From: Natrarchaeobius halalkaliphilus
Lineage (GTDB): Archaea; Halobacteriota; Halobacteria; Halobacteriales; Natrialbaceae
Assembly: GCF_003841485.1 (NCBI RefSeq)
Contig: NZ_REFY01000004.1
Span: forward strand, 310,001-374,000
DNA: 64,000 nucleotides
Reading direction: 5' to 3'
The first letter of the stretch is position 1. The number at the start of each line of letters is the position of its first letter. Under the pieces are notes generated by a model. It had not been told where the DNA came from and did no database searches. It worked only from the letters and a program-made list of their open reading frames with translations. Shown one piece after another: positions 5,364 through 42,665 of this stretch. The position numbers were made by a program, and so were the translations under genes.

Positions 5364-7665
5364 GCGGATGAGCAAGGTCTCGATGGCCGGCTCGCGGGGC
5401 GTCATGCCCACGGTCATCGAAACGATTCACGAGCTAAACCTGATCCACCTCTCGGATTACGACGGTTCGTGGGAGGGGTTCGACAACGGAAACCCGGTCG
5501 AAGGAGCGGACGACGCCTCCGAGAAGCTCGTAACCGTCCGGGCACTCGAGAGTACGCTCGATCTCTCTCCGGACGACGTCGCGACCGGATCGGTCGGGAC
5601 GGACTGGGAGAAACGACTCGAGGAGATACGGACGCGCGTCAACGAGCGTGACGACCAGCGCTCGGAGATCCGCGAACAGCGCCGGGTGATCGACGAGAAG
5701 ATCGACCGCGTCGAGCCGTTTGCCGAACTCGGTATCGATCTCGATCTCCTCTCCGGGTACGACTCCGTCGACGTTCTCGTCGGTGAGGGTCCCACCAGTG
5801 CGGTCGAAGCCGCCCTCGAGGACGCAGACGAGATCCGGGCTTTCGAACTCCTCACCGGCGGCGACGTCGTTGCAATCGTCGCAGCGCCCGACGACGACGA
5901 ACCAACTGATGGACTGATCGACGACGCGCTCGTCGGCGTCGAGTTCACCCGTCACCCGGTTCCAGAGACCGAACAGAGTCCGGACGAGTACGTTCGCGAT
6001 CTCACCGAGGAAAAGCGCGAACTCGAGGACGAACTCGAGCGGGTCGAATCCGATCTCGAGGAGATCAAATTCGAAGACGGCGGGTTTCTCCTGCGGGTCG
6101 AAGAGGAGCTGACCATCGAGGTACAGCGCGCTGAGGCGCCGCTTCAGTTCGCGACGACGGACCGAGCGTTCGTCGCTGAGGGATGGATTCCCGAAACGGA
6201 GTACGATCGGCTCGTCGACGCGCTGACCGAGGCCGTCGGTGACAGCGTCGAAATCGAAGAGCTCGAGGTCGCGGAGTTCGACGACCACGACCACGGTGCT
6301 GAAGTCCACACCGGAAGCGGTGGCGACGGCGATGGAAACGGCGGAGACGCGACAGGCGAAGCCGAAGCCGAATCCACACAGCCAGCCGCGGGGAAAGCCG
6401 CTACCGACGGCGGAACGACCGCGAAGTCCGCCGGCCACGGAAGCGGAGCCGTGACCATGGACGACGATCCGCCGGTTATTCTCGAAAACCTGACGCCGGC
6501 GAAACCGTTCGAGCTTCTGGTCAAGATGGTTGGCCAGCCCAAGTACAGCGAACTCGATCCCACGCTGTTGGTCTTTTTGACCTACCCGTTCGCGTTCGGG
6601 TTCATGATCGGGGATATCGGCTACGGTATCCTCTACATGCTGATGGGATACGGCTGCTGGAAAGTGTTCGACTCCGATACGGGCAAGGCCCTGGGGACGA
6701 TCGGTATCTGGGCCGGTGCGTTTACTATTATCTTCGGCTATCTGTACGACGACTTCTTCGGAATCCACATGGCGGACGTCGGACTCGGTTTCCTGCCGTT
6801 TGCCGGGACGCTTTCGAAGGGACTGCAGATCACCGACTGGGCGTTGTTGTGGATCGTTCTGAGCCTCGCGTTCGGAATTATTCACCTCAACATCGGACTC
6901 GTCATGGGATTCGCAAACGAACTCAAACACGGACTGAAGGCGGCCGTCTACGAACGGCTGTCCTGGCTGCTCGCCATGAACGGCGCGTTCCTCTGGATAT
7001 TCAGCCACCGTGACGCCGGTGCGTTCGATCACGGACTCGGTATCGACCTGGCAGCCTCCGGAATGAAACCGGAGTTCATCGCCGGAACCGAGAGCATCCT
7101 CTATCAGACCGAGCACTTCGCGCTCGGCTTCGCAGGGCTTCCGGAGATCGTCGGCATCCTCGGAATCGCGATGTTCCTCGTAGGGAGCGTGATGGTCGGC
7201 GTCGGAGAGGGAATCGCCGGCGTCTTCGAGATTCCGGCGTGGGCGTTCGGTCACGTCCTCTCGTACCTGCGGATGGTCGCCGTCTTGCTCGCAAAGGGTG
7301 GTATGGCGTTCGCCGTCAACCTGCTCGTCTTCGGCGCGTACGAAACGTCGGAGGGATACACCTACTTCAACTACCCCGGGCTCCACATCACCGACATATC
7401 GGGGTACGGTGCCGAAGAGCTTACGCCCGGATTCGTCGGCCTCGTTCACGCCGGCGACGGCATTCTGCTCTCGGCAATCGCGATCATCGGCGCCATCGTC
7501 GTCTTCGTTCTCGGGCACATTCTGGTTCTCTTGCTGGGGATTACCGCAGCAGGGATCCAGATGCTTCGTCTGGAGTACGTCGAGTTCTTCCAGAAGTTCT
7601 ACGAGGGCGGTGGCGAGGAGTACGATCCGTTCGGTGAAGAGCGGACGGTTCAGCCGGCCGACTGA
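5350..7665 (+). CDS. atpI: A-type ATP synthase subunit I
   Basis: 771 residues. The stator membrane subunit (homologue of V-ATPase subunit a) carries the ion half-channels that drive the K ring. Residues 1 to about 310 form the cytoplasmic domain with coiled coils (residues about 90-120 and 215-240) that bind the E/H stalks. A Gly/Asp/Ala-rich linker (about 320-365), typical of haloarchaeal versions, precedes about seven to eight membrane helices from about residue 405 (FLTYPFAFGFMIGDIGYGIL) to 750. AFGHVLSYLRMVAVLLAKGG, about residue 640, holds the conserved channel Arg. The start overlaps atpH by 14 bp and its motif MFRPERMSKVS is typical of the family. Confidence 0.95.
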   Translation: MFRPERMSKVSMAGSRGVMPTVIETIHELNLIHLSDYDGSWEGFDNGNPVEGADDASEKLVTVRALESTLDLSPDDVATGSVGTDWEKRLEEIRTRVNERDDQRSEIREQRRVIDEKIDRVEPFAELGIDLDLLSGYDSVDVLVGEGPTSAVEAALEDADEIRAFELLTGGDVVAIVAAPDDDEPTDGLIDDALVGVEFTRHPVPETEQSPDEYVRDLTEEKRELEDELERVESDLEEIKFEDGGFLLRVEEELTIEVQRAEAPLQFATTDRAFVAEGWIPETEYDRLVDALTEAVGDSVEIEELEVAEFDDHDHGAEVHTGSGGDGDGNGGDATGEAEAESTQPAAGKAATDGGTTAKSAGHGSGAVTMDDDPPVILENLTPAKPFELLVKMVGQPKYSELDPTLLVFLTYPFAFGFMIGDIGYGILYMLMGYGCWKVFDSDTGKALGTIGIWAGAFTIIFGYLYDDFFGIHMADVGLGFLPFAGTLSKGLQITDWALLWIVLSLAFGIIHLNIGLVMGFANELKHGLKAAVYERLSWLLAMNGAFLWIFSHRDAGAFDHGLGIDLAASGMKPEFIAGTESILYQTEHFALGFAGLPEIVGILGIAMFLVGSVMVGVGEGIAGVFEIPAWAFGHVLSYLRMVAVLLAKGGMAFAVNLLVFGAYETSEGYTYFNYPGLHITDISGYGAEELTPGFVGLVHAGDGILLSAIAIIGAIVVFVLGHILVLLLGITAAGIQMLRLEYVEFFQKFYEGGGEEYDPFGEERTVQPAD

Positions 7666-40279: not shown

Positions 40280-42112
40280 TTAACCGTCGGTATCCCAAAC
40301 GTCGGCCAGCGGACTGGACGACGAAGACGATCGTAGCGACCGTCTCGAGTCGGTCCGCGAGGGGGGTTCGCTCGCGTCCGTACGGCCCCCGTGACGCCGG
40401 TTCGAACGACCGGAGCCGTCGTGAACCTCGCTGAGCGCGGCTTGCGGGTCGAACGCCGGTAGCGACGGCTGCTCGAGTCGGTCGACCTGGGCGTCGAACC
40501 AGTCCGGCACGTCCGTCCGCGCGCGCTCGAAGAGATCGAGGAGGCTCGAGTCCGCAAGGTAGGTCGCACCGTAGTCGTCGGGAGCGCGGACGACTCTGCC
40601 ACAGGCCTGGATAACGGTTCGCAACGCGGCCCGGTAGTACCACGCCCACTGATCAGCCTCCAGACGATGTGCGACGCGCGAATCGCTCGTGTTGAGAAAC
40701 GGTGCCTTACAGATGACCTGAAACCGACAGAGATCTCCCTTCAGATCGAGCGCCTCTTCCATCTTCACGGAGAGGAACACGTCGGGATCGTCGCTCGCTT
40801 TCCAGTCCTCGAGATCGGCGTCTCGGCCGTCGCGGTCGTGAGTCCTGATCCGATCACCGACGCCAAAATCGGTCAGAAGCTGAGCGAGTCGTTCCTGGAT
40901 GTCGTAGGAGTGGGCGTGGATCAGCCCCTTCTCGTCCGGGTGATTCTGCATGATCCGAACGATGACTCGAGCGAGCTTCGGCGTCGTCTCGTCTCGGTGT
41001 TCGTAGGTCATTTTCCCCTGGGTGACGTCGTACAGTGGCCGATTCTCGACGGGGAACGTGTGGCCGACGTCGACGAGGGCAACGGTGTCGGGATCGAGAC
41101 CGACCTGTCGACAGAACGCCGCCTTGTTGAGGATGGTTGCCGACAGCAGGGCGAACCTGTTGCCACGGTCCCAGACGGTGTGTGCGAGGTACTTCTCGGG
41201 ATTCATCGGCTTGATCGTCAGCGGACCGCCCAGCGCTTCCTCGTCGTCGGTCGATGCGCCGGAGTTCGGCTCCGACTGGTCGACCAGCCACGTCGTCGGA
41301 CTCTGAGGGTCGCGGAAATCCGAGACGAACCACTCGAGTTCACCGATGAGTTCCTGCAAGCGATCGCGTTCTCGAACCTCGCCCGGAGTGAGCGACTGCT
41401 GTGCGAGCAGGTCGTCCTTCCTGCGGGTGCACGTCTGTGCCAGGTTTTCGGCGTAACGAACCGCTCGTTCGGTTCGATCGATCTCGGGGACGCGCAACTC
41501 CTCCCAGAACGGTACCGTTCGGGGACCCAACTGGATCGTCGCGTACATCTCGGCCCACTCCGCGAGGCCGTGAGCTTCGTCGACGACGACGACGTCACGC
41601 GTTCGAAAGACCTCACTGCCGGCGGTTTGCATGAAGTACGCGAGCGTCATGGCCGCGATCTCTCGGTTCGACGCGATCGCTCGATCGGAGAAGTACGGAC
41701 AGCGGTGTTTGACGGAACAGTCATAGCCTCGCTCGCGAACGCAGGGTGCCTGATTGACCGGCGTGTCGCGTTCGTCCGGCAGGATACAGGTGTAGTTCGA
41801 CTTGCCGCGAATAACGCTCAGATCGGCCAACAGGTCGTCGCTCGCCACGTCGTCGAGCTGTGAGACCTGTGGGGTCGTGTAGTAGGCACCCGTCGCATCG
41901 CTCGGGTCGCCCTCCGCGACCGTACGCGCACAGCCGGCGACGGCTCGTGCGAGCAGGGACTTGCCGCTCCCCGTCGGTGCACGGACGAGCACGACGTCGT
42001 TTCCGGCCGCGAAGGCGTCTCGGATGTCTTGGAGAGCACTCTCCTGATTCCCGCGGTAACTCGGCGCGGGAAACTCCTCGAAGATCCGCTCGGGGTTCAC
42101 CGTTCGACTCAC
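40280..42112 (-). CDS. Rad3/DinG-type DNA helicase with an iron-sulfur motif
   Basis: 610 residues. Superfamily 2 helicase. Walker A APTGSGKS at 45-52, Walker B VVVVDEAHGL near residue 177, and C-terminal motif VIQACGRVVRAPDDYGATYL. Four Cys lie between the two (NYTCILPD, QAPCVRERG, YDCSVKH, RCPYF), as in XPD-like proteins where they hold a 4Fe-4S cluster needed for strand separation. It starts at GTG 42112. Likely role is DNA repair or removal of structures. The Ser-rich tail (about residue 570 on) is extra. Confidence 0.92.
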   Translation of the reverse strand: MSRTVNPERIFEEFPAPSYRGNQESALQDIRDAFAAGNDVVLVRAPTGSGKSLLARAVAGCARTVAEGDPSDATGAYYTTPQVSQLDDVASDDLLADLSVIRGKSNYTCILPDERDTPVNQAPCVRERGYDCSVKHRCPYFSDRAIASNREIAAMTLAYFMQTAGSEVFRTRDVVVVDEAHGLAEWAEMYATIQLGPRTVPFWEELRVPEIDRTERAVRYAENLAQTCTRRKDDLLAQQSLTPGEVRERDRLQELIGELEWFVSDFRDPQSPTTWLVDQSEPNSGASTDDEEALGGPLTIKPMNPEKYLAHTVWDRGNRFALLSATILNKAAFCRQVGLDPDTVALVDVGHTFPVENRPLYDVTQGKMTYEHRDETTPKLARVIVRIMQNHPDEKGLIHAHSYDIQERLAQLLTDFGVGDRIRTHDRDGRDADLEDWKASDDPDVFLSVKMEEALDLKGDLCRFQVICKAPFLNTSDSRVAHRLEADQWAWYYRAALRTVIQACGRVVRAPDDYGATYLADSSLLDLFERARTDVPDWFDAQVDRLEQPSLPAFDPQAALSEVHDGSGRSNRRHGGRTDASEPPSRTDSRRSLRSSSSSSPLADVWDTDG

Positions 42113-42255
42113 GGACCGGATCCGCCCTAAAGGCTACGAACCGTCGCTCGTGATGAGAGCGATCCGGTTCGTGGCGGTCGATCGCGGGCTCGGAACCACC
42201 GACTATCCAACGGTCACACCACGAAACCACCGGCTACCCGACGGTAGTAGACCGA

Positions 42256-42264
42256 TTACAAATA
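42256..42264 (+). promoter_or_regulatory. TATA-like element upstream of the tRNA-like gene
   Basis: TTACAAATA ends 27 nt before the first base of the acceptor stem at 42291, a usual distance for an archaeal tRNA promoter. Confidence 0.45.
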
Positions 42265-42290
42265 CGAACTCGGCCGATCGTTCGGTGTAC

Positions 42291-42379
42291 GGAAGGGTCG
42301 CTCAGCGGAAGAGCACCGCGGTGCCCATCGGGTCCGTGGCGGCACTTTGCCTCGTGGCGTTCGAATCCCACCCCTTCCG
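42291..42379 (+). tRNA. tRNA-like gene, anticodon not resolved
   Basis: 89 nt. A perfect 7-bp acceptor stem (GGAAGGG with CCCTTCC, discriminator G), D arm GCTC-AGCGGAA-GAGC, and T loop TTCGAAT with stem CCCAC are present. The 5' side of the T stem is GTGGCG, so it pairs only if one C bulges. The 39-nt middle does not fold into one normal anticodon arm: CCGCG/CGTGG can enclose 14 nt, and a GGC-ACTTT-GCC hairpin resembles a long variable arm. Options are a class II tRNA, an intron-bearing tRNA, or a degenerate gene. I cannot assign an amino acid. Confidence 0.5.
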
Positions 42380-42419: not shown

Positions 42420-42665
42420 TCACGGCTCGCGGAGCCGAGACGTTTCTCCGTCGACTGACTCGAGCCGATCGACGTCCGCAACGGACGGCTCGTCAGGTAA
42501 CGCCGCGAGACACGGATAACACAGCAGGTGATCCGTGCCGTCATCGAACTCGAGCGTCATCGCGGTGCCGGCGCTGCCGTCGTTCTTTCCGAACGTCCAG
42601 ACGTTCGCCATCCCACCGGCGACCGAGACCGCCCGGCCGCAGCCGTCACAGGTGTCCCGTGCCAT
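42420..42665 (-). CDS. Small zinc-ribbon protein (DUF7561-like)
   Basis: 81 residues. It opens MARDTCDGCGRAVSVAGGMA with one CxxC pair and has a second pair in HLLCYPCLAALPD, so it probably binds one zinc. The NVWTFGKNDG segment is typical of this haloarchaeal family (DUF number from memory). ATG 42665 is preferred; the upstream ATG (42746) lies at the edge of palindromic repeat copy 3, and the 27 extra residues are unlike the family. Function unknown. Confidence 0.75.
   Translation of the reverse strand: MARDTCDGCGRAVSVAGGMANVWTFGKNDGSAGTAMTLEFDDGTDHLLCYPCLAALPDEPSVADVDRLESVDGETSRLREP

Follow-up and report, generated by a model that had tools for sequence, protein, structure and literature searches.

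Anticodon-less tRNA-like RNAs that come from genes of their own are, to our knowledge, known mainly as bacterial tmRNA, which lacks an anticodon, and we know of no conserved archaeal family of such RNAs that has been described. Departures from the usual acceptor branch are known from decoding tRNAs, the branch of tRNA-Sec being 8/5 or 9/4. In the consulted sections of PMC7609411, selC* tRNA-Cys and the allo-tRNAs are described with 12-bp acceptor branches (8/4, 9/3) and a decoding anticodon, and selC* tRNA-Cys with a one-base bulge in the T stem at 51a. Small haloarchaeal RNAs of 96–111 nt have been reported from Haloferax volcanii as s194, H225.2R and sRNA_61, and the consulted parts of those reports describe s194 and sRNA_61 as ribosome-associated or ribosome-occupied (PMC6104027, PMC3956466, PMC12482152). 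A search of the open-access literature on haloarchaeal tRNA-like and non-decoding tRNAs, with subscription journals mostly outside its coverage, gave, among the matches listed, no description of the RNA family presented below.

The RNA was followed up in a window of 64,000 nucleotides, the whole stretch of Natrarchaeobius halalkaliphilus DNA that was analysed, where the original prediction had placed a tRNA-like gene with acceptor, D and T arms at 42291–42379. All three arms are present there, both in the sequence and in the minimum free energy (MFE) fold, and the copy can be drawn as a possible cloverleaf at 42290–42379 on the plus strand with the features as they had been described. The features of the locus are as follows:

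40280–42112, minus strand: divergent gene for a DinG/Rad3-type helicase (Pfam Helicase_C_2 and DEAD_2), given as context only
42253–42268, plus strand: TATA/BRE-like promoter CGATTACAAATACGAA, predicted from the upstream consensus of 73 Natrialbaceae-type sequences
42290–42379, plus strand: the whole tRNA-like RNA, including base −1 and discriminator G73, defined by fold, pattern, homology searches and model R1 (103.2 bits, a score for which the window copy was itself in the training set)
42291–42297, plus strand: 5′ strand of the acceptor stem, GGAAGGG, forming 7 bp with 42372–42378, with C42290:G42379 (C-1:G73) as a possible eighth pair
42300–42314, plus strand: D arm, GCUC and GAGC around the loop AGCGGAA, stem 42300–42303 with 42311–42314; A14, G15, G18, G19 and A21 are kept
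42316–42339, plus strand: central hairpin replacing the anticodon arm, with 6 bp, a bulged U42322, 4 bp and a 3-nt loop
42341–42351, plus strand: class II extra (variable) arm, GGCA and UGCC around CUU, with 4 bp, 1 nt past the central hairpin and 2 nt (UC) ahead of the T stem
42354–42371, plus strand: T arm, GUGG[C]G and CCCAC around UUCGAAU, pairing 42354–42357 and 42359 with 42367–42371 and leaving C42358 bulged
42372–42379, plus strand: 3′ strand of the acceptor stem, CCCUUCC, and discriminator G73, with no encoded CCA

The MFE fold of the single strand is a five-helix class II cloverleaf of −42.3 kcal/mol, in which C-1:G73 brings the acceptor to 8 bp and the central hairpin has 10 bp, with a modest z of −2.11, 5 of 200 shuffles folding as well as the window copy. 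Single-sequence folds of other copies were weaker (z −1.36 in Haloarcula and −1.14 in Haloferax), and those of two loci, L128 and L096, were not plain cloverleaves. A strict tRNA-like definition, drawn up with knowledge of the element, required 7 acceptor pairs, T8, a 4-bp D stem with GG in the loop, a TTCRANY T loop and a T stem of 5 bp carrying no more than one bulge; it matched the 64-kb window once, at 42291–42379, and none of 60 dinucleotide shuffles. The bulged C that had been claimed for the T stem is C42358. The claim of a 39-nt middle without a standard anticodon arm also stood; the original prediction had missed that this middle divides into a closed hairpin and a class II extra arm.

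The tRNA-like domain of bacterial tmRNA likewise consists of the upper half of a tRNA, according to the consulted sections of PMC3985003; unlike tmRNA, the window RNA has no mRNA domain, a real D arm, a class II arm and an archaeal host. No tag-coding mRNA part was found in the element, which is 90 nt long. The acceptor branch is 7/5 here, and a standard anticodon arm occurs in one copy only, in contrast to the 12-bp branches and decoding anticodons of selC* tRNA-Cys and the allo-tRNAs (PMC7609411, as far as consulted). A search of the window copy for a 12–13 bp acceptor branch with a decoding anticodon, as in tRNA-Sec, selC* or allo-tRNAs, found instead 7 + 5 bp with a bulge and no anticodon, and the −1:73 pair could extend the branch to 8 + 5. 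Identity with s194 is not supported, as s194 is tabulated with 0 homologues in other haloarchaea in the consulted part of PMC3956466. The comparison with the three H. volcanii RNAs was by description rather than by sequence, and no match of our RNA to H225.2R or sRNA_61 could be made from the published descriptions, consulted in part, which gave no sequences (PMC6104027, PMC3956466, PMC12482152).

A normal tRNA fold with a clear anticodon, sought in the window with ARAGORN and Rfam, was not found. ARAGORN returned 0 tRNAs and reported no tmRNA; Rfam gave 0 matches at the gathering cut-off and, at E up to 10, no tRNA family and only two weak unrelated matches. The element is absent from the 41–42 Rfam tRNA matches of the genome, and a 7-nt anticodon loop on a 5-bp stem is absent from the fold of the window copy. 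When ARAGORN was given each of 163 distinct pattern-matching sequences singly, it called 39 of them tRNA, all on the right strand; 17 of these calls had no anticodon, and the other 22 had 12 different anticodons, of 8 isotypes. This result cuts both ways: tRNA finders see some relatives, yet there is no common anticodon, indicating that the shape is tRNA-like and that an anticodon is not common to the copies. A standard anticodon arm (5 bp, 7 nt, U33, anticodon CUU, kept in the predicted fold) was found among the 163 only in L147, at 6994–7077 in Halegenticoccus tardaugens, which retains the bulged T stem and may still decode. A further sequence, L239, pairs at all five positions of the anticodon-arm register but lacks U33, and another four sequences pair at 4 of the 5. 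No triplet was common to the apical loops of the orthologues, and the folds and sequences read gave no sign of a bulge-helix-bulge with a recoverable anticodon.

The 163 sequences come from the available loci and were picked by a search pattern. Because this pattern holds the acceptor, U8, a portion of the D arm, the T loop and the 3′ strand of the T stem constant, invariance at those places is partly imposed; the middle and the 5′ strand of the T stem were left free. In each of the 163, a T stem of 5 bp can be formed in one way only, with a single base bulged. The bulge follows the third pair in 90 sequences (U in 89, C in 1), the same place as the bulge of selC* tRNA-Cys described in the consulted sections of PMC7609411, and the fourth pair in the other 73 (C). 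The predicted apical loop of the central arm has 3–6 nt in 145/163, an extra-arm helix is predicted in 132 and lacking in 31, including Haloferax copies such as L128, and the discriminator is G73 in 128, A73 in 34 and C in one. The central helices of L096 and L101 are 13 nt long and lie in a stretch of 28 nt between base 27 and the T stem, in which an intron could occupy no more than about 7 nt. Among 39 diverse sequences (one alignment, A2, made of 38 of 41 cluster representatives and the copy of the window genome), A14, G15, G18 and G19 were invariant and C48 nearly so, all at positions free to vary in the search; U8, A21 and the T loop were also kept, but are fixed by the search pattern. 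Because these contact bases of the D loop, T loop and core are kept, the L-shaped elbow of a tRNA is expected. Since the bulge is seen in all of the 163 sequences and the closed central arm in nearly all, the two abnormalities pointed out by the original prediction are, as judged from these copies, family features and not damage.

Individual loci depart from this form. L038 (G039, 230–470), a copy with a long insert that lies outside the 163, has an extra arm grown to about 100 nt, for a total of 169 nt, with the rest seemingly intact. In L333 and L334 (G330, G296) the acceptor and T arm are intact and the D arm is broken, which suggests decay of the gene in that genus. Differing copies, two or three to a genome, were seen in Halegenticoccus soli (L172, L181, L190), Halobium salinum (L108, L136) and Halorientalis persicus (L154, L193), with shorter and longer central arms suggesting that these are old paralogues.

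Conservation of the element exceeded that of its surroundings. Among the four genomes of the genus, the element is 88–95% identical, while the 60 nt downstream are 47–62% and the 60 nt upstream 69–89% identical. Taken by itself, the middle part has a mean pairwise identity of 57–76%, which speaks for a looser constraint there. The relaxed selection of a tRNA pseudogene was not found. In an alignment of 36 Natrialbaceae sequences (from 44, near-duplicates and L044 being left out), 98.3% of cells were paired, and changes on both sides of a pair were seen at 6 of the 9 modelled central-hairpin pairs, compared with 0 of 500 shuffles; all six of these pairs lie in the central hairpin. As the acceptor and T stem are invariant in that alignment, the acceptor and D stem were examined in a wider set of 24 hand-picked sequences of several types, including related types that we infer to be homologous to the window type. 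Here, 99.6% of cells pair, five pairs show both-side changes (1/500 shuffles), and the covariation of the acceptor and D stem is 0.259 versus 0.101 in shuffles, a value that none of the 500 shuffles reached.

The genome of the window carries one copy, and the RNA was found in 4/4 genomes of the genus. Within the family Natrialbaceae, matches at E ≤ 0.001 were obtained in 111 of 125 genomes and 28 of 29 genera, and at E ≤ 4.5e-10 in 106 genomes; three of the five weakly matching genomes (G006, G009 and G016) proved, once their sequences were read, to have a divergent member each (L336, L100, L102), and the other two (G026, G107) were not confirmed as members. In the order, the exact pattern matched 184 of 392 genomes in 44 of 95 genera, and its reversed control matched 0; the positive genomes had a single match in 174 cases and two in ten (counted by eye). 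Covariance model R2 added 8 genomes among the same 392 at E ≤ 1.3e-11 (also counted by eye), and four of these, when read, held members with small changes (L326–L329). About half of the genomes of the order gave no strong match, so the RNA appears not to be universal in the order, or to be too divergent there. No count outside the family was based on model R1 alone, because two matches at 52–54 bits that were read were ordinary tRNA-Ser genes (L099, L104). For models R2 and R3, the totals of 373/392 and 285/293 (E ≤ 0.001 or 1e-4) include ordinary tRNAs and are not taken as membership counts.

In a sample of the phylum, 24 of 294 genomes had the exact pattern, and each of them belongs to the order; the 241 genomes from outside the order (G421–G661) gave no match. 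In a wider collection, at least 120 stretches matched, and those among the matches listed were haloarchaeal or from uncultured euryarchaea. Thirteen of the 15 Haloferax genomes carry the RNA, and two weak further matches (55–56 bits) were left uncounted. Viral contigs gave no exact match, and phage matches were 28–29 nt long, with an annotated tRNA-Ser in 5 of 9 records. In plasmids, the window query found no match, and the Haloferax query found one copy, on a Halorientalis plasmid.

The TATA-like box at a suitable distance, as the original prediction had it, is TTACAAATA, which starts at 42256, at −34 from base 42290. For the 144 of 163 sequences with 100 nt upstream and 60 nt downstream, the upstream regions were tabulated: the motif TTAYWAW begins between −34 and −32 in 63 of the 73 Natrialbaceae-type regions, and is absent from the other 71, which have only an A/T-rich patch at about −34 to −26. 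A homologue of the divergent helicase lies near the element in 42 of 121 loci, those listed being in Natrialbaceae, and sdhA, the succinate dehydrogenase flavoprotein gene, precedes it in at least 17 of 121, as confirmed by Pfam at L143 in Haloferax and L121 in Haloarcula. In Haloferax the element lies beside sdhA, and s194 and H225.2R, judging by gene numbers, are presumably elsewhere. Clusters of open-reading frames around the 121 loci, some of which are spurious antisense frames of GC-rich DNA, gave lineage-specific neighbours only, none of them pointing to a function. Because the neighbours differ by lineage, the RNA is taken to be a stand-alone gene that is not explained by its neighbours.

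On the other side of the window element, a convergent small gene of the uncharacterised family DUF7561 (42420–42665, minus strand) ends about 40 nt past it. At two further loci, L035 (200–520 in G032, a Halovivax asiaticus contig) and L036 (280–780 in G033), a partial duplicate of the 3′ part (T loop, 3′ strand of the T stem and 3′ strand of the acceptor) stands about 90–270 nt downstream, as if inserted or duplicated there.

Two related types were read alongside the window type. The one designated type C has the acceptor GAAAGGG or close to it, a class II arm, an unbulged T stem and a central loop of 3–5 nt (L330, L331, L332, L335, L338 and L356, in G217, G287, G350, G363, G390 and G291), and ARAGORN assigns it contradictory isotypes, Arg, Pro or His. 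The Haladaptatus type has the acceptor GAACGGG, an unbulged T stem, an extra arm and hairpins of varied length replacing the anticodon arm. Twenty-one of its copies were read (L361, L362, L372–L387, L390, L391), one to four in each of eight genomes (G205, G220, G256, G259, G267, G271, G286, G289), and 20 of the 21 are on contigs other than the first. Their flanks held no widely shared neighbour gene, the largest cluster of open-reading frames spanning 5 of 20 stretches, and ARAGORN named nothing at L361 and L362. With relatives that lack the T-stem bulge, the bulge would not be essential to every relative.

Among the ordinary tRNAs of the genome, tRNA-Ser(UGA) (L286) is closest to the window RNA by alignment score (38.3 versus 31.3 for the next), in a ranking where length favours class II tRNAs. 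The two share acceptor length, the D/T elbow, the spacing of the extra arm (1 nt before it, 2 nt, UC, after it) and G73; unlike tRNA-Ser(UGA), the window RNA has no anticodon loop, a T-stem bulge, a GGAAGGG acceptor and a length of 89 nt. The Ser-type extra arm with G73 is thus present in the window copy, though it is not general across the family. According to the consulted part of PMC9976931, the extra arm, rather than the anticodon, is the main determinant of serine identity. The most likely origin, from this resemblance, is a class II tRNA, probably serine. As for the remaining tRNA set, 41 Rfam matches pass the cut-off and ARAGORN names 40 of them; the one unnamed in its default mode, L280 (1501–1607), is probably the elongator Met tRNA (CAT) with an intron. 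Trp, Ile-CAT, Arg-CCG, Gly-CCC, Gln-CTG and Pro-CGG were not seen among the 41 matches of this draft genome, and U34 partners able to wobble-read the codons of those four C34 tRNAs are present. As far as its copies can be read, the element offers no conserved anticodon to fill a gap in this set.

The original prediction had left several readings side by side, among them an intron-bearing or class II tRNA, a decayed gene and a new tRNA-like RNA. The class II reading is borne out in form by the Ser-type extra arm, and that of a new tRNA-like RNA gains from the conservation, from the compensatory changes and from the copies having no anticodon in common. The intron-bearing reading would make the RNA a decoding tRNA, with one or more introns to be spliced out at bulge-helix-bulge sites. 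It would fit with haloarchaea having intron-bearing tRNAs, the elongator Met tRNA here being apparently one of them, and with the four C34 isoacceptors, Trp and Ile-CAT tRNAs that went unseen; L147, moreover, has its standard anticodon arm without any splicing. We nevertheless regard this reading as highly improbable, since the apical loops share no triplet and ARAGORN proposed 12 different anticodons, a single helix with one bulged base makes up the central arm in the window copy, and this helix is near-continuous in the inspected copies, L096 and L101 with their 13-nt central helices have hardly room for an intron, the unseen C34 tRNAs have U34 partners, and the T-stem bulge would persist after splicing. 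The short central helices and the lack of a common anticodon make split and permuted tRNAs unlikely as well.

Decay of a former tRNA gene is about as hard to credit. No tRNA finder sees the window copy, and the D arm is broken in L333 and L334, but the promoter-like box is kept, identity in the genus falls from 88–95% in the element to 47–62% just downstream, compensatory changes occur in the helices, and not one of the 163 sequences lacks the T-stem bulge. As a general account, a pseudogene is refuted by this conservation, and only single lineages may be decaying. Somewhat less improbable, yet still doubtful, is a tRNA-derived mobile or repeat element or integration target that is kept by copying or insertion, for which the several copies in Haladaptatus genomes (20 of 21 off the first contig, with no widely shared neighbour), the partial 3′ duplicates after the element in L035 and L036 and the Halorientalis plasmid copy could speak. 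The window type, however, matches exactly once in 174 of the 184 positive genomes, stays beside the same gene within a lineage (the helicase in 42 and sdhA in at least 17 of 121 loci), and had no exact match in viral contigs.

We therefore consider it likely that the locus is a conserved, functional, non-decoding class II tRNA-like RNA gene of haloarchaea, nearly all copies of which are without a usable anticodon. Given that the acceptor and elbow are intact, the RNA would be transcribed, processed at its ends by RNase P and tRNase Z, and would receive CCA as a tRNA does. The closed central hairpin, variable in sequence and length, replaces the anticodon arm in nearly all copies. The T stem is where the elongation factor aEF1A grips a tRNA, and the missing anticodon and the T-stem bulge may together keep the RNA off the decoding path, its job being presumably to hold, present or titrate something away from that path.

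What it carries or binds can be proposed only tentatively. Charging by SerRS is conceivable in lineages that have a Ser-type extra arm and G73, such as that of the window, and this idea, which we hold to be short of probable, is weakened by the 34 of 163 sequences that have A73 (one has C) and by the 31 for which no extra-arm helix is predicted. As a general function, a seryl-tRNA donor is a possibility only, given A73 and the loss of the extra arm in other lineages. An aminoacyl donor on the one hand, and a ligand regulating SerRS or a tRNA-processing enzyme on the other, each seem unlikely when taken singly. On a broader and rather speculative view, which may be wrong more readily than right, the window, GAAAGGG and multi-copy Haladaptatus types would be branches of a dedicated haloarchaeal class of tRNAs that carry an aminoacyl group or bind a ligand and no longer decode, the anticodon arm having closed into a hairpin and the T stem having gained a bulge to that end; members of such a class would be matured and possibly charged, would never enter the decoding cycle, and would act as amino-acid donors or as regulators of tRNA enzymes.

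The locus indicates that a conserved gene with the shape of a tRNA can escape genome annotation based on tRNA models. If the non-decoding reading is confirmed, an off-ribosome use of tRNA structure would become testable in genetically tractable haloarchaea such as Haloferax.
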